Positions 3,373-14,216 of a stretch of 44,551 nt of DNA are shown piece by piece. Below the pieces are notes generated by a model. The model worked only from the letters and a program-made list of their open reading frames with translations, was not told where the DNA came from and did no database searches. The stretch is from NCBI GenBank assembly GCA_902602795.1, contig CACKSF010000005.1, positions 1 to 44,551 on the forward strand, in the 5' to 3' direction. Each line of letters opens with the position of its first letter. Within the stretch, counting starts at the first letter, position 1. A program made the translations under genes and the position numbers. The DNA comes from an uncultured Fidelibacterota bacterium. Lineage in GTDB: Bacteria > Fidelibacterota > Marinisomatia > Marinisomatales > UBA1611.

Positions 3373-4428
3373 TTACTTTTTAATAATTGAAAATAAATTA
3401 TGAAAAAATAATTCTTTAGCTGCAATAAATTTTTTTCTTTCTGTTTTTGTAGTTGAATCCAAAAATTCTTTAATTAAACCTATTCCTGTTGCTAGTAAAA
3501 AGGAAAAAACCGCAGCAAAAATGACTATAGATTTTTTCCTTGGACTTGAACGAATAAGCGGTAATTCAGGAGGGTCAACTACTATCACATAATTTGATTC
3601 TTTCAATTCTTCAATTTTTGTAGTTTCTAGCTGCTGTTTTAAAGTTGTAAAAACCCCAATTAAAACACTGACTTCCCTTGTCAACCTCTGTTGCTCTAGT
3701 AATAGGAGTGGGGAATTTTCAATTCTTCTATTTCTGATTGCAAAATCTTTTAGGTTTTCCTCTGCTAAATTCAATTCATTTTTTGTTGTCTCAATTCTTT
3801 TTTCAATAAATTCTCTCGCCTCTCCCGTTATCATTTTGTTATAATTTCTTTGATGCAAATCAAGCTCCTCAATAAAAGCATTTACAAGATATTGGGAAAG
3901 CTGTCTATCAGGACTTGTTAATGAAAGAGTATACACCCCAGTTTTTATATTTTGAGAAAGAGAAAGCATATCTATTAACTTGTTTATTGTTTTAATTTCA
4001 ATTTTATATAAATCTTCTTTATTTAATTTTTCTGCGTTATTAAGAATATTTATAATAGGTAGCTGTTTTTTAAATTGTTCTGAAAAAAAATCTCTTTTTA
4101 GTATTGCTTTTGCAAGAGTTCTACTTTTTATTATATCATCATAAACCCACTTCGGCTCAGATTGACTTGTTGGCAGTGATATACCAAATTCTGATGCCAA
4201 TCCTGCTATTTGAGATTGGCCTCCACTAGAAGTGGACATGATTTTTGCAGTTGATGTAAATTGATGCTCAGCAATAAACTGAGCGTACAAGATAGATAGT
4301 GATCCAAATAAAATGATATTTAGAATAAAAAGATTAATGTGTTTTGCAAAAAAGAAAACTATATCATTCAATTTAATAAAATTGCTATTATCTTCCACAT
4401 AGCTACTGATCTTCGAATTTTTTGACAA
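3373..4428 (-). CDS. Wzz/GumC-type chain-length determinant protein (no kinase domain)
   Basis: N-terminal TM helix, coiled-coil centre, ...VVDPPELPLIRSSPRKKSIVIFAAVFSFLLATGIGLIKEF proline-rich second TM typical of Wzz. Confidence 0.88.
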   Translation of the reverse strand: MSKNSKISSYVEDNSNFIKLNDIVFFFAKHINLFILNIILFGSLSILYAQFIAEHQFTSTAKIMSTSSGGQSQIAGLASEFGISLPTSQSEPKWVYDDIIKSRTLAKAILKRDFFSEQFKKQLPIINILNNAEKLNKEDLYKIEIKTINKLIDMLSLSQNIKTGVYTLSLTSPDRQLSQYLVNAFIEELDLHQRNYNKMITGEAREFIEKRIETTKNELNLAEENLKDFAIRNRRIENSPLLLLEQQRLTREVSVLIGVFTTLKQQLETTKIEELKESNYVIVVDPPELPLIRSSPRKKSIVIFAAVFSFLLATGIGLIKEFLDSTTKTERKKFIAAKELFFHNLFSIIKK

Positions 4429-4433
4429 TGTAA

Positions 4434-7400
4434 TTATGACCTAACTAATAAAATTAATGATAAAGCTTGTGCCAAATTGGCTAATATGGCTGTTAATTCT
4501 TTGGCATATTCAGTGCTATCAAAAGGCTCTTCTTCTTTCTTTTTGCCAACGATAATCTTTGACCCATCATATATTATAGGGTTAGATAAAAACCTTCTAT
4601 ATCGCTTTGATCTACCATTCGGGTATTCTATCCATACATTTTTTTGATCTGCATCTTGACTAAATCCACCAGCATATGAAATGTATTTGCTTGCCCTTTT
4701 AGCTCGAATAAATTTATAGTTTCCTGGCGTGTTTACCTCACCATCAATTTCAACAATAGTTGGCTTCTTTGCTATTAAAATAGAATCATTATTTTGTATT
4801 TTTATATCATTCTTTTTGCCACCCTTTAATATTTTTCTTAAATCTATTTTCACATCTTTACCATTTCTTGTGAAAGTCGAAGCAAAAGGATAAGCGTTTG
4901 GCATTAACCCTCCAGCTCTTTTTATTATTTCAGAAATTGTTTCATCTGGTCCTTGAATAATGTATGCACCTGGATAATGCACCGCACCTTGAATTGTTAC
5001 TTTCCGATCGACTAAAAAATAAGGATCTGGATGTATATTTATATAATCATAGGGCATAAGCTGGAATTCTTCACGACTAACTACTAATTCTTTTGAATCT
5101 GTTGAATATTCTACACTTGATAAAGAATAATCATTAAACATATCAAGCGATATTGTCTCTCCATAAATTGCTTCGCTAAGTTTATCTGGATCAACCCTTG
5201 CAATTTCAATTTTATATTTATACATGTTTTTTGTTACTCCACCACTTTGCAATATGAGGTCTTTAACCGTCATACCTTTTCTTAATTCGTACTCTCCTGG
5301 AATATTGATGGCCCCTTGAATTGTAACATATTTAACACTGTTGAGTGTTTCATTTGAGTAAACATTAATTTGATCGCCCGGAAGTAGCTTAAAATTATTT
5401 TCTTTAGATTCAATCAAGGCTCCTAAGTCAAAAGGTATTATTTTTTTCCCAACACCATCATCAGTAAGTCTTATTAAATCTGCTCTATCTAGAAATGTTT
5501 TAGATTTAAAGACAATATCATCGTAGCCTCCAGCTTTAAAAATCATATCGAATAATGTCATATTACCTTCATATAATTCATAAGTCCCAGGTCTTTTAAC
5601 ATGACCTTCAATTTTAACAAATTTTCTTTCGCCAACAATTTCATTTAACTTATAAATATGAATATGGTCTCCATTTTTAAGAAGATCATCTGAACCGAAT
5701 TCTTTATTTAGAACATTCTCAACATTGAACGGTATGATTTTTTTTTCATCATTATTTCCGCTAAATCTAACGATCTCGCCCCTGGGTAAGAAAACTTCCT
5801 TTTTATATTCTTTATCCACAGGATTTAAACCAGACTTAAACAATAGATCATAAAGTGTCATATTTTTCTGAAGCTCGTATTGACCTGGTTTTATTGTAGC
5901 TCCAGTTATGCTTACAAATGCATCTCTAGTTATTTCAGTATTGCTATAAATACGAACATTATCCATGTTTTTTAAATTAATGTCATGGCTATCATTTTTC
6001 ATTAATATTGAATCCAGGTTAAGTTTGAATAATATTTCATTAAAATCTAAATCTACTCTAATTAAATCCACTCTATCTTTATAGGCATCTCCTGTAATAC
6101 CGTCTGCTTTGTTTATTAATTGGCTGATAGTTAAACCGCTACCTAAATCATATTGTCCTGGCCTACTAATTGATCCATTTATAGAAACAATATTACTCCT
6201 TACATCCTCAATAGAGAAAATTTCTAGTTTATCTCCATCATTTAAATTGAAGTTATTTTTGCTTGAAATCATTTTTTCTAAATCAATATCAACAAGTGAT
6301 CGATCTCTTTTTTCGGTCAATCTATCTTCAAAAGATATTACTCTGTCAATTTGTGCTCTATTAAGATAGGCTGTTATTTTTAAACCTCCTGCGATTTCTA
6401 GAAAGTCCAATAAACCTTCAGAGTCTTTTAGCTCATAAATTCCAGGACGCATAACTTCTCCAAAAATTGATACTGTTTTTAATCTTTTTGGAATAAATAT
6501 TATGTCATCAAGCTGAAGCTTTTCATCTTTAATTTTTTTTCCTGTAGTCAAATAGTCATAAAAATCTATGTCTGTTATTTCCAGATTATCCCTTATCAGC
6601 TTTATATTTCTTAATGATCCTAGAATTGTTGGACCATTAAAATAGTATAATGAAGAAAATAGTGTGGTTGAAGGACTAACAATATATGCCCCGGGTTGGT
6701 TAACTTCGCCTATTACCTGAACTCTTAGAGGCCTTAAATTTCCTAAACTAATATCTAAAAAAGTTGACGGTTCTCTTCCTATAGGATTTAAGCTAGCATA
6801 TGACTGAGATAAAACTCGAAAAAGTTTTGACTCTAAAAGATTGAAATTTAAACCATTTACAAAAACTTGTCCTATCTCAGGAATGAAGACAAACCCTTCT
6901 CTATCTACTGTTAATACCTGACGAAATTGGGTTTCACCCCAAAGCATTACTATAATTTCATCCCCTGGTCCTATAAGATAATCTGGATCGACAGCCCCAA
7001 CGGAACTCAATTGAAAAATTTCAGGATCTCTTTTAAAAATATCATATCCAAAATGAGAAATTTCTAATTTTGGGTCATCAAAATACCCATCATAAGTTTC
7101 ATCATTAATTTTTTTTAAATTTTTCAAAGGATCAATTATCTCATCGGCTTTTTTGGTTATATTGTTTTCAAAAATTGGTTTCTCTATGCTAGATGTATTT
7201 TTATTGACTTCTGATCTGTTTGAAGAAATGTCAGTATCAAAATTCCTTGTAACGTTTGATTTTGTAGTTTCTTTATCTTTTTCTAAAACGGCATTTATTT
7301 GAGCATCGGAAATCCCCCTAGCTCTTGCAGCTGCTTTTGCTTGAGAATCAGTCATACCAGATTGTTTAACATAATCTTTAACCTGCTTGATTTGATCTGG

Positions 7401-7448
7401 AGTCTGAGAAAATAATACAGAGAATAAAAATAATAGTCTAATTTTCAT
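4434..7448 (-). CDS. Polysaccharide export outer-membrane protein with Poly_export domain and about eight SLBB repeats (Wza-like)
   Basis: DPDYLIGPGDEIIVMLWGE (Poly_export) followed by repeated (V.I.G.V..PG.Y......) segments. The supplied ORF starts at 7571, but MKIRLLFLFSVLFSQ at 7448 is a signal peptide and avoids overlap with the upstream gene, so 7448 is the likely start. Confidence 0.9.
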   Translation of the reverse strand: MKIRLLFLFSVLFSQTPDQIKQVKDYVKQSGMTDSQAKAAARARGISDAQINAVLEKDKETTKSNVTRNFDTDISSNRSEVNKNTSSIEKPIFENNITKKADEIIDPLKNLKKINDETYDGYFDDPKLEISHFGYDIFKRDPEIFQLSSVGAVDPDYLIGPGDEIIVMLWGETQFRQVLTVDREGFVFIPEIGQVFVNGLNFNLLESKLFRVLSQSYASLNPIGREPSTFLDISLGNLRPLRVQVIGEVNQPGAYIVSPSTTLFSSLYYFNGPTILGSLRNIKLIRDNLEITDIDFYDYLTTGKKIKDEKLQLDDIIFIPKRLKTVSIFGEVMRPGIYELKDSEGLLDFLEIAGGLKITAYLNRAQIDRVISFEDRLTEKRDRSLVDIDLEKMISSKNNFNLNDGDKLEIFSIEDVRSNIVSINGSISRPGQYDLGSGLTISQLINKADGITGDAYKDRVDLIRVDLDFNEILFKLNLDSILMKNDSHDINLKNMDNVRIYSNTEITRDAFVSITGATIKPGQYELQKNMTLYDLLFKSGLNPVDKEYKKEVFLPRGEIVRFSGNNDEKKIIPFNVENVLNKEFGSDDLLKNGDHIHIYKLNEIVGERKFVKIEGHVKRPGTYELYEGNMTLFDMIFKAGGYDDIVFKSKTFLDRADLIRLTDDGVGKKIIPFDLGALIESKENNFKLLPGDQINVYSNETLNSVKYVTIQGAINIPGEYELRKGMTVKDLILQSGGVTKNMYKYKIEIARVDPDKLSEAIYGETISLDMFNDYSLSSVEYSTDSKELVVSREEFQLMPYDYINIHPDPYFLVDRKVTIQGAVHYPGAYIIQGPDETISEIIKRAGGLMPNAYPFASTFTRNGKDVKIDLRKILKGGKKNDIKIQNNDSILIAKKPTIVEIDGEVNTPGNYKFIRAKRASKYISYAGGFSQDADQKNVWIEYPNGRSKRYRRFLSNPIIYDGSKIIVGKKKEEEPFDSTEYAKELTAILANLAQALSLILLVRS

Positions 7449-7452
7449 ATTT

Positions 7453-8247
7453 TTAATAGGATTGTAGATATTGCGCTGGATTTTCGTCAAAATATTCTCC
7501 TTCAACTGGATTATATGTATACATTGCAAACCAAGCTTCTTTAATATCTTTGTTAGTAAATTTATGTTCATTTCCTTTAGCTATGGCAACTCCGACTTCG
7601 CTATCTTTGTAGAGGCAAATAATTAAATTATCATAGTTATTATAATCCTTTTTTAATTTTTTACACAAATCTTTTTGGGCTTTTACTGAAGCACTGTTTT
7701 CAATAGTTACAAAAAGCTTCACTTGGTCAAAAGCATTTGAAATTTTTTCAAATCTTTGAACAGTATTTTTTGGAATGAAAATATTTTCTTCGAATTGTTG
7801 ATTCTTATTCATCGAGGGATCAAAACTGTTATCAACAGCTAACTTTACCTGGTCATTTAGTATTTCATTTTCATTTATATTTTTAGTTACTTTTTTATTT
7901 TTAAATTGATAAACGATATCAACTGAGGGGTTTAAAGGAGGGTTTTTTACTATTGGGTTATTTTGATTTATTGATGTTGCAGATTGATTAAAAAAGGAAA
8001 AAAATATTATTATAAAAACAACATATAGAATTATAATCCATTTACTTTTAAAATTAAGGGAGAAATAATTTTTTCCTTTTTTTTCATAATTTATATCATA
8101 CGCAATTTGCTTTTTTTTAGCTTCCTCAAAATTTTTTGTGCCAAGTGAGTGGAAGATTCTTTTATTTTTTTTCCCAGACTTTGGATTCAGAGTGTAGGTC
8201 TGGTAGTAATAATATCCGTCACGTCCTTTTCTGTAGATACTACTCAT
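7453..8247 (-). CDS. Membrane protein with integrase-N-terminal-like basic domain, one TM helix and an extracytoplasmic C-terminal domain
   Basis: MSSIYRKGRDGYYYYQTYTLNPKSGKKNKRIFHSLGTKNFEEAKKKQIAYDINYEKK, then TM WIIILYVVFIIIFFSFF, then a conserved-looking C terminus LIICLYKDSEVGVAIAKG...AWFAMYTYNPVEGEYFDENPAQYLQSY. Start moved to the second Met (8247). Confidence 0.7.
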   Translation of the reverse strand: MSSIYRKGRDGYYYYQTYTLNPKSGKKNKRIFHSLGTKNFEEAKKKQIAYDINYEKKGKNYFSLNFKSKWIIILYVVFIIIFFSFFNQSATSINQNNPIVKNPPLNPSVDIVYQFKNKKVTKNINENEILNDQVKLAVDNSFDPSMNKNQQFEENIFIPKNTVQRFEKISNAFDQVKLFVTIENSASVKAQKDLCKKLKKDYNNYDNLIICLYKDSEVGVAIAKGNEHKFTNKDIKEAWFAMYTYNPVEGEYFDENPAQYLQSY

Positions 8248-8395
8248 TTTTAAAAAATTAGTTTCATATAACAAAAGGAATATATAACAAAATAAATCCG
8301 ACTAAAATAAATAACTACTGCATAACTACTTTAGATTAGATAAGGACTACCATTAAAAATAGAGAAACAAATACAGCTACCCCTGCATATGTCCT

Positions 8396-9358
8396 TTATA
8401 TTCTATCTAGCTTATAGGATTTGAACCATTTAATAAATTTCGGGATACCTTCTTTAATTTCAACAGCGGGCATATACCCTAACAAATCATTTGAATGGTT
8501 AATATCTGCAAAAGTCTTTTCCACATCCCCAGGCTGAATTTCCATTAAATCAATTGTTGCTTTTTTGTCTAAGCTCTGTTCAATAATTTTTATCATATCA
8601 AAGAGATCTTCAGTCTTATTATTACCAAGGTTAAAAATTTCACATTGGTAATTTTTATCCAGAGCTTTCCTTATGCCATCTACAATATCACTAATATACG
8701 TGAAATCCCTTTTCATTTTTCCATAATTAAAAACTGGTATGGGCTTATTTTTAATAATATTTTCTGCAAATATATACATTGCCATATCAGGTCTCCCCCA
8801 AGGTCCATATACGGTGAAGAACCTTAGCCCCGTTGTATTTAAACCGTAAAGATGACTATAAGTATGGGCCATTAACTCATTCGCTTTTTTTGAGGCGGCA
8901 TAAATAGAAATCGGTTTATCAACTCTATCTTTGATAGAAAATGGGACTTTTTCATTCCCTCCATATACAGATGAGCTTGAAGCATAAACTAGCCCCTTTA
9001 CATCATTAAAACGACACATCTCTAAAATATTCATAAAACCGACAATGTTGGAATCTATGTAAGCGTGGGGATTTTCAAGACTATATCTAACTCCAGCTTG
9101 AGCAGCAAGATTAACAATTTTATTTGGCTTAAAATTTTTAATTACTTTTCTTAGCAATGACAAGTCGCAAATATCTATATTTTCAAATTTAAAATTTTTA
9201 AACTGCTCTAATTTTTTCTTCCTAAACATTTTTAAACGAACATCGTAATAATTGTTCATGTTATCAATGCCTAAAACAAGAAAATCTTCATTTAGTAGAC
9301 TTTCACATAAATGCATCCCAATAAATCCAGATGAACCAGTTACCAAAATTTTTTCCAT
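8396..9358 (-). CDS. UDP-glucuronate 4-epimerase-like SDR
   Basis: GSSGFIGMHLCE, DNMNNYYDVRLK, AAQAGVRYSLENPHAY, GLRFFTVYGPWGRPDMAMYIFAENI are characteristic of this epimerase group. Confidence 0.88.
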   Translation of the reverse strand: MEKILVTGSSGFIGMHLCESLLNEDFLVLGIDNMNNYYDVRLKMFRKKKLEQFKNFKFENIDICDLSLLRKVIKNFKPNKIVNLAAQAGVRYSLENPHAYIDSNIVGFMNILEMCRFNDVKGLVYASSSSVYGGNEKVPFSIKDRVDKPISIYAASKKANELMAHTYSHLYGLNTTGLRFFTVYGPWGRPDMAMYIFAENIIKNKPIPVFNYGKMKRDFTYISDIVDGIRKALDKNYQCEIFNLGNNKTEDLFDMIKIIEQSLDKKATIDLMEIQPGDVEKTFADINHSNDLLGYMPAVEIKEGIPKFIKWFKSYKLDRI

Positions 9359-9368
9359 TATCTAATAC

Positions 9369-10652
9369 TCAAAGTCTCCAATAAACCACATTTGACTCAT
9401 CAAAAAACGATTTATTATAAATTGATTTAACATCAACAACAAGACCACCAGGTTTTAATAATTCTCTCCACCTACGTTTTGATATGTTCTTGTAAGCATC
9501 ATGGCTAACTGCTAGGATTATCACATCCTTATCTTGAATTCTATCATATGATGTTAACTTAATATTGTAATGACCTATGACCTCTTTGCTGTGTGCCCAA
9601 GGATCAGAAACCTCTAAATCACATTGATATTCATTTAACTTATCTATAATATCTGTAACTTTTGTATTTCTCAAGTCTGGACAATTTTCTTTAAAAGTCA
9701 ATCCTAAAATTCCAACCTTAGCGCCAATAGGATTTATTCCAATACTAGCTAACTTTGAAATAGTTTTTTCAGCTATATATGCCCCCATATTATCATTAAT
9801 CTTTCTACCTGTCAAGATTATCTCAGGATGATACCCTATTTCTATAGCTTTATATGTGAGATAATAGGGATCAACACCTATACAGTGCCCACCAACTAAA
9901 CCTGGCCTAAAGTCTATAAAATTCCATTTTGTAGATGCTGCCTCTAAAACTTTTGAAGTGTCAATATTTAATTTATTAAAGATTAGCGATAGCTCATTCA
10001 TCAGGGCAATATTGACATCTCTTTGAGTATTTTCTATAACTTTTGCAGCCTCCGCAACCGCAATAGATGAAGCTTTATGAACTCCAGCAGATATAATACT
10101 TTCATAGAGTTTAGTAACTATATTTAAGGCAAACTCATTTGAACCAGAAACTACTTTAACTATTTTCGTAAGAGTATGCTCTTTATCACCTGGATTAATT
10201 CTTTCAGGACTATAGCCGCAAAAGAAATCGGTGTTATAATTAAGCCCTGATTCTTCTTCTAAAATAGGAACACAAACTTCTTCTGTACATCCTGGGAATA
10301 CAGTTGATTCAAAGATTACAATGTTATTTTTAACTAGCATGCTGCCAACTAAAGTGGAGGCTGATTCTAAAAACGACAGGTCTGGTTTGTTGTTTTTGTC
10401 AACAGGTGTGGGGACAGTGACAATATAAATATTAGCGCGAGCTATATCTTTTTTACTATTAGTAAACCTTAAATTTTTTAAATCATTCTTTTGCAGCTCA
10501 TTTGTTCGATCAAAACCATTAATTAACTCGTCAACCCTATCAACGTCTACATCAAATCCAGTAACTTTATATTTTTTATTAAACTCAACTGCTAAAGGAA
10601 GACCGACATAGCCCAAACCAATAACTGCAATATGTTTTTTTTCTTTAACCAT
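9369..10652 (-). CDS. tviB: Nucleotide-sugar 6-dehydrogenase, TviB/WbpA type (UDP-HexNAc dehydrogenase)
   Basis: AVIGLGYVGLPLAVEFNKKYKVTGFDVD, FESTVFPGCTEEVCVPILEEESGL, KWNFIDFRPGLVGGHCIGVDPYYLTYKA, ILGLTFKENCPDLRNTKV; strongly TviB-like. Confidence 0.92.
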   Translation of the reverse strand: MVKEKKHIAVIGLGYVGLPLAVEFNKKYKVTGFDVDVDRVDELINGFDRTNELQKNDLKNLRFTNSKKDIARANIYIVTVPTPVDKNNKPDLSFLESASTLVGSMLVKNNIVIFESTVFPGCTEEVCVPILEEESGLNYNTDFFCGYSPERINPGDKEHTLTKIVKVVSGSNEFALNIVTKLYESIISAGVHKASSIAVAEAAKVIENTQRDVNIALMNELSLIFNKLNIDTSKVLEAASTKWNFIDFRPGLVGGHCIGVDPYYLTYKAIEIGYHPEIILTGRKINDNMGAYIAEKTISKLASIGINPIGAKVGILGLTFKENCPDLRNTKVTDIIDKLNEYQCDLEVSDPWAHSKEVIGHYNIKLTSYDRIQDKDVIILAVSHDAYKNISKRRWRELLKPGGLVVDVKSIYNKSFFDESNVVYWRL

Positions 10653-11761
10653 TATTTTTCATAGTTTGTTTTTAAAATATTAAGCACATCTTCGAAGCTT
10701 AGGCTAAAAATATTATTTTGAATTCTACTTGAATTAAAAGATTCAGTTGCAATTTTTGCAAGGTCTTTATTTTCTACACCCCACTTTTTTAGATTCAAAT
10801 TAAAGACACCCTCAGGAACACTTTTTACATAATTTTTTAAACCATCAAAATCAATGTTTAATCGTTGAAGAAGTGGCTGCAATTTATCCTCAATAAATTT
10901 TCTGTTTAAATCCATTAATGGCTCAAGAGAAAAAAACACTGCAATACCATGAGGAATTCCATATCTGATTGTTAAAGGATAACTTATAGAATGTGCTGCT
11001 GCAGTTTTTGTTTGAGAAAAAGCTATTCCAGCAAGATTTGAAGCATAAAGTAATTTATTCCTTGCTTCTAAATTGAAAAGATCTGTTTTTATGACTGGTG
11101 CATTTTTTAGGATTAAGCTTATGGACTTTAAAGCAATTTTGATAGAATTTTTATTTTGGTTTTTATTCCAAATAACTTCAAAACTGTGAGCAAGAGCATC
11201 CATTGTAGTCGCTATAGAGATCTCTAAAGGCAATGATAATGTTGTACTTCCATCTAAGATTGCCACGCTGGGATATAATTTAGCATTCGAAATGGAGTAT
11301 TTCTTATTTTCCTTCATGTCCCAAATAGTACCCCACATTGTCACCTCGCTTCCGGTGCCATGAGTGGTTGGGATAAAAACGGAAGGGACTACGTTTTCAT
11401 ATTGCCCTTTGAAACATATTAATTCAGTTAAGGTAAAATCTTTATTGCTAATATAACTAATTACTACTTTAGCCAAATCCATTACAGATCCTCCACCAAT
11501 GGAGATTACGCCATCGAATGAGTTTGTTTTTGTAAAATTCATTATTTCATGACAATCATCAAAAGTTGGATTACTTTTGCTTAAACAAAATATTGAATCA
11601 GGATTGAAAATACTATCTAGATTTAGACGATTTTTATTACCTGAGGAGGTGACAATAATTGGATTTAAAATTTTAAAATCCGATATCTGTTTAGTAAGTA
11701 ATTTTTTCCATGTATTTGTCTGAAAAACTTTAACAGGATTACAATTATTTATAAAAGTCAT
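10652..11761 (-). CDS. Iron-containing alcohol dehydrogenase, putative phosphonoacetaldehyde reductase (PhpC-like)
   Basis: SIGGGSVMDLAK, PTTHGTGSEVTMWGTIWDMKENKKYS, DALAHSFE, AAAHSISYPLTIRYGIPHG; overlaps the phosphonopyruvate decarboxylase gene by 4 bp. Confidence 0.85.
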   Translation of the reverse strand: MTFINNCNPVKVFQTNTWKKLLTKQISDFKILNPIIVTSSGNKNRLNLDSIFNPDSIFCLSKSNPTFDDCHEIMNFTKTNSFDGVISIGGGSVMDLAKVVISYISNKDFTLTELICFKGQYENVVPSVFIPTTHGTGSEVTMWGTIWDMKENKKYSISNAKLYPSVAILDGSTTLSLPLEISIATTMDALAHSFEVIWNKNQNKNSIKIALKSISLILKNAPVIKTDLFNLEARNKLLYASNLAGIAFSQTKTAAAHSISYPLTIRYGIPHGIAVFFSLEPLMDLNRKFIEDKLQPLLQRLNIDFDGLKNYVKSVPEGVFNLNLKKWGVENKDLAKIATESFNSSRIQNNIFSLSFEDVLNILKTNYEK

Positions 11762-12900
11762 TTTAATTCTTGGTTACGAACAAAATTTATAAATTCTAAT
11801 TTATTTTCACTTGGTGCAATAGTTGGCCTGCCAAGATTTGATCTTGAGTTTGAAGATATCTCAATTTCCATAAAGCACGGTCCAGATTTTTTGAAAAAGT
11901 TTTTTAGCCTTGCTTTCAATTTTAATCTTGTATTCACTTTTTCTTGCTGGAAAACGTGCATTGAATTAACAACCGAAGACAAATCGATTAGCTTTGCTGC
12001 TGTATCTTGACCTCCAACAGATTCATGAACTCTATTATTCAATAAAAAGTAATAAAAATTTTTTAAATTAGATGTGGCAATATTTGTTAATGCCCCTAGA
12101 TGCATTAACATAGAACCATCTCCATCAATGCATACGACTGGTCTTTTTGGTTTTGCTAGAGCAACTCCTAATGCAATTGAAGAGCAGTGTCCCATTGATC
12201 CAACTGTTAAAAAATCTTTTTTATGTGAATCCAATCTTCGCTCCCTAATTTCAAAAATTTCTCTTGAAGTTTTACCTGTTGTAGAAACAAGTGCTGAATC
12301 TTCACTAAGATTATCAATAATAATTTCTAAAGCATTTTCTCTAGACATTTCATTTTTAGGTTTACAACTTTTATTAAATCCAGATTTTGAAAATGTACTT
12401 TTTTTAACTAAGAGAATAACTGGAGTACTAAATTTTTTTGCCTTTTGAGCAGCTCGCGCTATTTTTTGTTTAAAATTAATATCGTTTTTACCTATTATTT
12501 CATATGGGTAATGGATTGCATTTAACAAATCTATTTGTACCTTACCTTGTTTTTTATGCTGAGGCTCATCTTCTATGGCTGGGTCTCCTCTCCAACCAAT
12601 AAGCAAAATTATTGGGATAGAGTAAACGTCCGGATCACTAAGAGAAAGCAACGGATTTAAAGCATTCCCAAATCCCGAGTTTTGCATGTAAACCAGAGGT
12701 ATTCCTCCTCTACCTAAATAGTAACCAGATGCTAATGCAATAGCGCTTCCTTCATTTGCTGTAATAATATGTTTATCCTGATCAATCTTATTTTCAACAC
12801 ACAAACAAAATTCTTTTAGTAAAGAATCTGGAACTCCGGCAAAAAAATTAACACCATTTCTTAATAATTCTTTAAGAAAAACGTTTGGGTCAATCGACAT
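11758..12900 (-). CDS. ppd: Phosphonopyruvate decarboxylase (ThDP-dependent)
   Basis: FFAGVPDSLLKEFCLCVE, ANEGSAIALASGYYLGRGGIPLVYMQNSGFGNALNPLLSL, LLIGWRGDPAIEDEPQHKKQG, GDGSMLMHLGALTNIA (ThDP/Mg motif). Confidence 0.95.
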   Translation of the reverse strand: MSIDPNVFLKELLRNGVNFFAGVPDSLLKEFCLCVENKIDQDKHIITANEGSAIALASGYYLGRGGIPLVYMQNSGFGNALNPLLSLSDPDVYSIPIILLIGWRGDPAIEDEPQHKKQGKVQIDLLNAIHYPYEIIGKNDINFKQKIARAAQKAKKFSTPVILLVKKSTFSKSGFNKSCKPKNEMSRENALEIIIDNLSEDSALVSTTGKTSREIFEIRERRLDSHKKDFLTVGSMGHCSSIALGVALAKPKRPVVCIDGDGSMLMHLGALTNIATSNLKNFYYFLLNNRVHESVGGQDTAAKLIDLSSVVNSMHVFQQEKVNTRLKLKARLKNFFKKSGPCFMEIEISSNSRSNLGRPTIAPSENKLEFINFVRNQELK

Positions 12901-14216
12901 TAGCTATCACTTTGTATTAAAGTAATTATTTCCTTAATCGGCATGCAATATTTTTCAGAAGCTTCTTTAGCACTATTATTTTCTAAAATATTTTTAGCCG
13001 TAGCAACCATAGCAGGATATGCAGAGCGCATTAAGTGATTTGCATAAATAACCACATTTACTCCTTGCTTCATTAGCTGCTCTTCAGTTGCCTGAGGATA
13101 TGATGAGGGAACTACAACAAGCGGGACCTTATTTTTAATTTTTTTATAATATTTACAAAAATTAAAAATTTCATCTGTAGACTTCTTGGAACTATGAATC
13201 ATAATAGCATCAGCACCCGCATTTATATAATGCTCAGATCTATTTAAAGCATCTTTCATCCCCTTACCTAGTATTAAACTTTCTACACGAGCAATAATCA
13301 TAAAATCGCTGGTTACTTGAGCATTTTTACCTTCTTTAATTTTATTACAAAAATTTTCAATAGTATCCTGATTTTGACTAACATCAGTACCAAAAAGAGA
13401 ATTTCTTTTCATGCCAATCTTGTCTTCAATTATTATTGCAGAAACTCCTAATCTTTCTAGAGTTTTAACTCTAAATTTAAAATGCTCAATTCTTCCTCCA
13501 GAATCACCATCTATAATTATGGGCTTTGTGGTAACTTCTAAAATTTCTTCAATAGATTGAAACCTTGAAGTAAAATCAACTAATTCTGTATCTGGCTTAC
13601 CTTTTGAAGTAGAGTCTGTGAGACTACTTTCCCATATTCCATCAAATTCATATTTTTTCCCATTTTTCATAATTGAAGTTTTCTCAACAATTAAACCCGT
13701 AAGGCCATTATGTGCTTCTAAGATTCTTACAAGGGGCTTAGCTAAAATCAATCTCCTCAATGTTGCTAAACGTTTCCCTGGTGTAATTCCATTAGCCTTA
13801 ACTGCGCTAATCAAGTCAGTGGAAGAAATACCTTTTGTATAAGCAGGCTCAATTAGCTTTCCTTTCCACTTTGATATTACTTCTACTACTTTATCTCGAG
13901 TTTTTTTTTGAACCCCTTCTTTCCAATCATCACCATGAACAACATAATCAGGTTTTATTTTTTTTAAATTAGGAACATAATCTAAAGTATTTTGCGGTAT
14001 TACCTTACTAACCCCTTTTAAATTTTCAACAATAACTTTTCTTTCTTCGAAGCTTATCAAAGGTAATCTTTTGTAGCTAGCTATTGCATTATCAGTTAAT
14101 AACCCAATTATCACTATACCTAGTTTTCTGCCCTCTTTAATTATATTCAAATGGCCTTTATGAACTAAATCAGCAGACATACCAATATATACTATTTTTT
14201 GATTTTTATTTATCAT
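12900..14216 (-). CDS. pepM: Cytidylyltransferase-phosphoenolpyruvate mutase fusion
   Basis: N-terminal HxGH nucleotidyltransferase motif ([12 protein letters not shown]) and [11 protein letters not shown] (ECT/GCT-like GIS(S/T)T). C-terminal PepM domain with [16 protein letters not shown], matching the EDKx5NS signature. Confidence 0.95.

Follow-up and report, generated by a model that had tools for sequence, protein, structure and literature searches.

In the 44,551-nt stretch of DNA analysed here (the window; contig C5 of a 1.38-Mb genome that is 59% complete), we find a gene for a 264-aa protein whose N-terminal domain (N-domain) is homologous to the arm-binding domain of tyrosine recombinases. 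Our computations also establish the fusion of this domain to a transmembrane (TM) helix and a C-terminal domain (C-domain), the linkage of the gene to an SLBB-type export gene, and a tandem repeat motif upstream of it. We propose that the protein is likely to be a membrane-tethered transcription regulator made from a captured integrase arm-binding domain, with DNA binding as a predicted activity. The features discussed below are the following.

3373..4428, minus strand: Wzz/GNVR chain-length-type membrane protein (Pfam Wzz 2.4e-6, GNVR 4.8e-7)
4434..7448, minus strand: SLBB/Poly_export (Wza-type) export protein, 1,004 aa (Pfam SLBB 6e-61, Poly_export 1e-15)
7453..8247, minus strand: whole gene, 264 aa, stop included (translation; nine full-length homologues)
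7456..7779, minus strand: C-domain, residues 157-264, predicted periplasmic (13-member alignment; no family or structure match)
7780..7977, minus strand: variable linker, residues 91-156, predicted disordered (pLDDT <50 over 91-154; 15% identity)
7987..8052, minus strand: single TM helix, residues 66-87 (hydropathy maximum 2.39 at 68-86; model helix 66-87)
8074..8247, minus strand: N-domain, residues 1-58, integrase arm-binding-type beta3-alpha (profile match, AlphaFold, viral fold match)
8312..8330, minus strand: putative operator AGTAGTTATGCAGTAGTTA, half-sites GTAGTT at 8324-8329 and 8313-8318, period 11 bp

The gene, its neighbourhood and its family

Translation gives a real 264-aa open reading frame on the minus strand, from an ATG at 8247 to a TAA at 7455-7453. 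A mechanical start call at TTG 8274 was rejected, because all nine homologues share a start further in, reading MSSIY... and using ATG except for one GTG. Its stop codon is followed after 4 nt by the ATG (7448) of the SLBB/Wza-like gene, which is presumably the next gene of the operon, with the Wzz/GNVR gene presumably the third. On the 5′ side lie genes for a UDP-sugar epimerase-type protein and a UDP-sugar dehydrogenase.

The same polysaccharide cluster contains phosphonate synthesis genes: positions 10652-14216 encode an Fe-dependent alcohol dehydrogenase, a TPP enzyme like phosphonopyruvate decarboxylase and a PEP mutase-cytidylyltransferase fusion. This arrangement suggests a phosphonate-decorated polymer.

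Searches of the order and the phylum (Ca. Neomarinimicrobiota) recovered a family of 13 copies in 11 of 245 genomes. Nine copies, in 8 of the 245 genomes, are full-length (255-270 aa, aligning at 33-42% identity to the window protein). The other four (in G072, G084, G138 and G152) are short and consist of a short TM anchor and the C-domain, without the N-domain. The originally noted position directly upstream of a Wza-like gene holds in the window and is kept across the family: an SLBB export gene is the downstream neighbour of all eight full-length copies whose contig continues. It also follows three of the four short copies, and the fourth lies 5′ of a full-length copy in G084, where the two stand in tandem (L031: 5910-6545 without the N-domain, 7378-8178 full-length). 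Orthologous SLBB genes without any family member occur in G010 and G064.

No relatives turned up in viral contigs, whether the query was the whole protein or the N-domain profile. With tblastn, the N-domain had no match in phages, and its one match in plasmids (E = 4) is meaningless.

The N-domain and the rest of the protein

A profile built from the nine N-domain sequences matches a 411-aa protein of G079 at its N terminus (E = 2.5e-6 in the genome search). This protein, from the same order as the window genome, is a tyrosine recombinase (Phage_integrase 3.4e-16, Phage_int_SAM_5 5.9e-12). An hhalign comparison of the N-domain with the N terminus of this integrase gives a probability of 95.4 and E = 1.7e-8 over 50 columns. 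All remaining profile matches that span the N-domain are integrases or integrase fragments; one weak match in G024 (L051), which is not within an integrase, was dropped.

The integrase likeness could in principle be a chance product of a small Lys/Tyr-rich domain, and the N-domain is indeed short and biased, reaches no Pfam family above cut-off and has no match in a PDB fold search. We consider this highly improbable. The profile scores 29.3 bits against the G079 recombinase, and none of 2,086 scored shuffled integrase N-termini exceeds 9.9 bits; the alignment covers the entire domain and includes a shared YYQT motif; the predicted fold agrees; and the other domain-spanning matches are all to integrases or their fragments.

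Pfam DUF6538 is matched by all nine members (best E 4.6e-5; 17.8 bits for the window member), every one of them under the curated cut-off of 27 bits. The other DUF6538-matching proteins that we inspected in these genomes, including the integrase of the window genome, are integrases or a truncated integrase relative.

The AlphaFold model of the N-domain shows three strands and a helix (E3-7, E12-20, E27-34, H40-58; mean pLDDT 86.5), the three-stranded sheet and C-terminal helix of an arm-binding domain. In the viral fold search, the Mx8 phage integrase ranks first (probability 1.00, TM 0.63, with a weak Foldseek E of 0.06), and further integrases are among the top 50 matches. A PDB sequence search with the N-domain returned nothing.

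The protein as a whole is not a tyrosine recombinase, as Pfam finds no Phage_integrase or SAM-like match in it. In place of the core-binding and catalytic domains with their R-K-H-R-H-Y residues, it has the TM helix, the linker and an unrelated C-domain. The original prediction, made from the sequence of the window, was that the first ~55 aa resemble the arm-binding N terminus of integrases and that a TM helix and a novel C-terminal domain follow instead of a catalytic domain. The profile scores and the hhalign match bear out the first part, the predicted beta3-alpha fold with its Mx8 match agrees with an integrase-like structure, so that the refuting case of an N terminus unlike any integrase or AP2-like fold did not arise, and the second part stands as well, the C-domain having no known relative.

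All nine full-length members have a single hydrophobic stretch (68-86 in the window protein), preceded by 11-20 Lys/Arg residues. Charge counts suggest an N-in/C-out topology, with flanking charges that are not decisive in every member. The model of the C-domain is compact, with the element order beta-beta-alpha-beta-alpha-alpha-beta-beta and a pLDDT of about 90. The domain matches no family in PHROGs, NCBIfam or Pfam; a PDB sequence search with it gave one chance match only, and a PDB fold search with the whole model gave nothing below 0.001.

Conservation peaks in residues 1-58: the N-domain averages 66% pairwise identity, compared with 46% for the C-domain, 21% for the region around the TM helix and 15% for the linker. 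Thus, the N-domain is still under selection and is no decaying relic.

We also observed proteins of about 160 aa in genus g25 (L055:1501-1980, L053:1216-1695, L052:1501-1986 and about 12 further genomes) that combine an integrase arm-binding-type domain with a core-binding-like domain and have no catalytic domain. They align with the N-domain at E = 2.3e-7 (hhalign) and with the integrase across both domains at E = 4.7e-6. The smpB gene adjoins them in the three loci examined for neighbours (L055, L053 and L052). These proteins look like domesticated, catalytically empty integrases.

Tandem repeats upstream of the full-length copies

Upstream of all nine full-length copies we found tandem half-sites of the GTAGTT type, mostly reading GGTAGTT and recurring every 11 or 12 bp. 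The repeats end 65-89 bp before the start codon (65 bp ahead of the ATG for the window repeat at 8313-8329). Apart from these repeats, the nine upstream regions, mostly AT-rich, are mutually dissimilar.

The sites vary in number and quality. For example, L028 has four exact sites, one of them on the opposite strand, and L031 (G084) has three, two exact and one variant, again with one in reverse orientation. In both L027 and L029 an exact site is accompanied by a variant one (one half-site in L027 reads GTAGCG), and the second site in L032 is weaker. A second exact match in L033 stands 5′ of another gene of the cluster, the one for the UDP-sugar dehydrogenase, at a distance of 103 bp.

We counted the exact pattern (GTAGTT-N5/6-GTAGTT) genome-wide. 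The window site is the sole exact match in its own genome. The pattern occurs once each in G000, G013 and G022 and four times in G047, always within the upstream region of this gene. The 93 searched genomes without a full-length copy contain 31 exact matches in total. This background predicts about 0.0005 matches for the nine regions, compared to 13 found, a count that is partly post hoc because the motif was first spotted by eye in the same regions and counted afterwards. Matches away from the locus include one within a coding region in G014:C56, taken as chance, one within a coding region in G084:C19 and one 5′ of an unrelated gene in G001:C26.

The exact pattern was not found upstream of the four C-domain-only copies, nor upstream of the SLBB genes in G010 and G064, the loci without this gene. 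In G084, where both copy types share one locus, the repeats are present only at the full-length copy. The repeat therefore tracks the N-domain rather than the C-domain or the export gene, and the paired GGTAGTT repeat is probably the target of the N-domain, as we predict. No paired GTAGTT was found around the related G079 integrase.

Polysaccharide operons are classic targets of RfaH. Because the GGTAG in the half-site corresponds to the core of the RfaH ops element, we tested the reading that the repeats are an ops/JUMPStart-like element through which an RfaH/UpxY-type NusG paralogue antiterminates the polysaccharide operon, the N-domain having a different role. The core of the ops element is GCGGTAG (PMC5995543), a NusG paralogue lies within the G064 export cluster (L098:14228-14854), and loci of short copies bear a GGGGCGGAAGTT element. 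Elements of this type, reminiscent of ops, stand 5′ of short copies at L101:6022-6109, at L031:5469-5909 and upstream in L102.

Nevertheless, the G064 locus has its NusG paralogue yet lacks the repeat, and the repeat-bearing genomes G084 (91% complete) and G001 (88%) each have a single NusG-family gene. The C3-GGTA-G8 core is not kept: C3, which pairs with G8, is not conserved, and at position 4, where a G4C change in ops abolishes RfaH recruitment (PMC5995543), the G that opens GGTAG is replaced by A in 5 of 18 half-sites, the window's two among them. Sites occur on both strands in L028 and L031, and a tandem period of 11-12 bp is foreign to ops. The ops reading thus fits poorly and is quite unlikely; it keeps some weight because the genomes are incomplete and the short-copy loci bear GGGGCGGAAGTT.

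When the nine regions are aligned on the second half-site, a TAnnnT hexamer follows 15-18 bp after an overlapping -35 position in seven of them, the highest count of the offset windows tried. In L031, for example, the sequence is GTAGTTGACA...TAGATT. The -35 and -10 of the window itself are poor. A sigma-70 consensus scan of 7400-8500 found promoter-like sites no more frequent than in shuffles, so the -35 and -10 are placed solely by comparing the nine loci.

The pho box is an example of an activator site with a comparable placement, and the arrangement of the repeat over the -35 resembles such activator sites. By this analogy, the placement leans towards activation rather than repression.

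A candidate regulator among known systems

We propose the following mechanism for the membrane-tethered regulator. The N-domain would face the cytoplasm, and two membrane-held N-domains would grip the two half-sites on one helix face, in the way integrase arm domains hold arm-type sites. Bound over the -35 region, the protein could switch transcription of its own gene and of the export genes behind it. The C-domain, predicted to be periplasmic, may supply the signal, perhaps the state or the product of the SLBB/Wzz exporter.

In favour of such a regulator we count the homology and fold of the N-domain, its top conservation, the repeats at nine of nine full-length copies and their absence where the N-domain is missing, the extra exact site before another cluster gene in L033 and the TAnnnT hexamer in 7/9 regions. 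Against it we count its presence in only 8 of 245 genomes, the poor -35/-10 of the window, the null sigma-70 scan and the lack of GTAGTT pairs near the G079 integrase.

The original prediction named a membrane-tethered regulator or an assembly factor of polysaccharide export; the nine-of-nine repeats strengthen the former. If instead the protein helped to build or assemble the SLBB/Wzz exporter, it would work through its C-domain in the periplasm, the N-domain would be a cytoplasmic anchor or adaptor that has lost its DNA binding, and the repeats would belong to another regulator. The SLBB and Wzz genes lie directly downstream, and four copies keep the C-domain without the N-domain, three of them still adjoining SLBB. 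From this occurrence of the C-domain beside SLBB we conclude that the protein also does something other than bind DNA. A purely structural role is nonetheless unlikely, given that the N-domain is more conserved than the C-domain (66% versus 46%) and that the repeats are found only where the N-domain exists.

Other export clusters in the phylum bear Wzz proteins in which a phage-repressor-like helix-turn-helix at the N terminus precedes the first TM helix (L098:11709-12944 and L072:1-903; also in G078:C3, G034:C49, G047:C7, G081:C20, G084:C12 and C50, G094:C2, G137:C1, G158:C79 and G007:C101). Phage_CI_repr is above cut-off in two of these proteins. The Wzz proteins beside the integrase-arm gene lack a helix-turn-helix in the window, L030, L032, L033 and L034, the loci tested. 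These fusions may be a second instance in which a membrane protein of polysaccharide export carries a DNA-binding head. We tentatively suggest, at somewhat less than even confidence, that the integrase arm domain serves as the reader head of a membrane-tethered regulator which senses polysaccharide export through its periplasmic domain; given these fusions, the phylum would have made two such inventions in parallel.

If true, the regulator would be a bacterial instance of an integrase arm domain domesticated as the head of a transcription factor. It would also bring transmembrane regulators a DNA-binding module that is new to them. The motif, as a short and nearly unique tandem repeat, would offer a handle on the control of surface polysaccharide in an uncultured marine phylum. 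Literature searches on DUF6538, domesticated integrase regulators and HTH-Wzz fusions found nothing relevant. According to its main text, a survey of transmembrane transcription regulators relied on Pfam models of listed DNA-binding domains, and integrase and AP2 domains go unmentioned there.

AP2/ERF and ApiAP2 transcription factors use an integrase-type DNA-binding fold with a three-stranded sheet, and are eukaryotic and soluble. They resemble the proposed regulator in using such a fold for transcription control and differ from it in these two traits and in belonging to separate sequence families.

With the RfaH/ops and JUMPStart systems, the repeats share a GGTAG core upstream of a polysaccharide gene; they differ in their tandem 11-12 bp arrangement, in not keeping C3/G4, in occurring in both orientations and in needing no NusG paralogue.

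The proposed layout is that of ToxR and CadC (PMC7496328, PMC5430869). The window protein would share with them a cytoplasmic DNA-binding domain, one TM helix and an extracytoplasmic C-domain, and its gene likewise lies beside its presumed targets. Their DNA-binding domain is an OmpR-type winged helix, whereas the candidate reader head of the window protein is an integrase arm domain with a predicted beta3-alpha fold and no Trans_reg_C match in Pfam, and the C-domain is unrelated to theirs by sequence. As the winged helix defines the ToxR/CadC family, the window protein is not a member of it. The G084 tandem of a full-length copy with a short TM/C-domain partner is comparable to the pairing of a sensor with a short partner in ToxR/ToxS.

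The arm-binding domain is an accessory DNA-binding part of mobile-element integrases, with a secondary structure that is similar across subgroups (PMC8138268). The N-domain is like those of Tn916 Int, lambda Int and the HPI/SXT integrases (CL0081; PMC8138268) in sequence, in beta3-alpha layout and in its N-terminal place, and probably also in having short direct repeats as targets. Unlike the tyrosine recombinases, the window protein has no core-binding or catalytic domain, and instead carries a TM helix and a unique C-domain and is encoded in a polysaccharide cluster.
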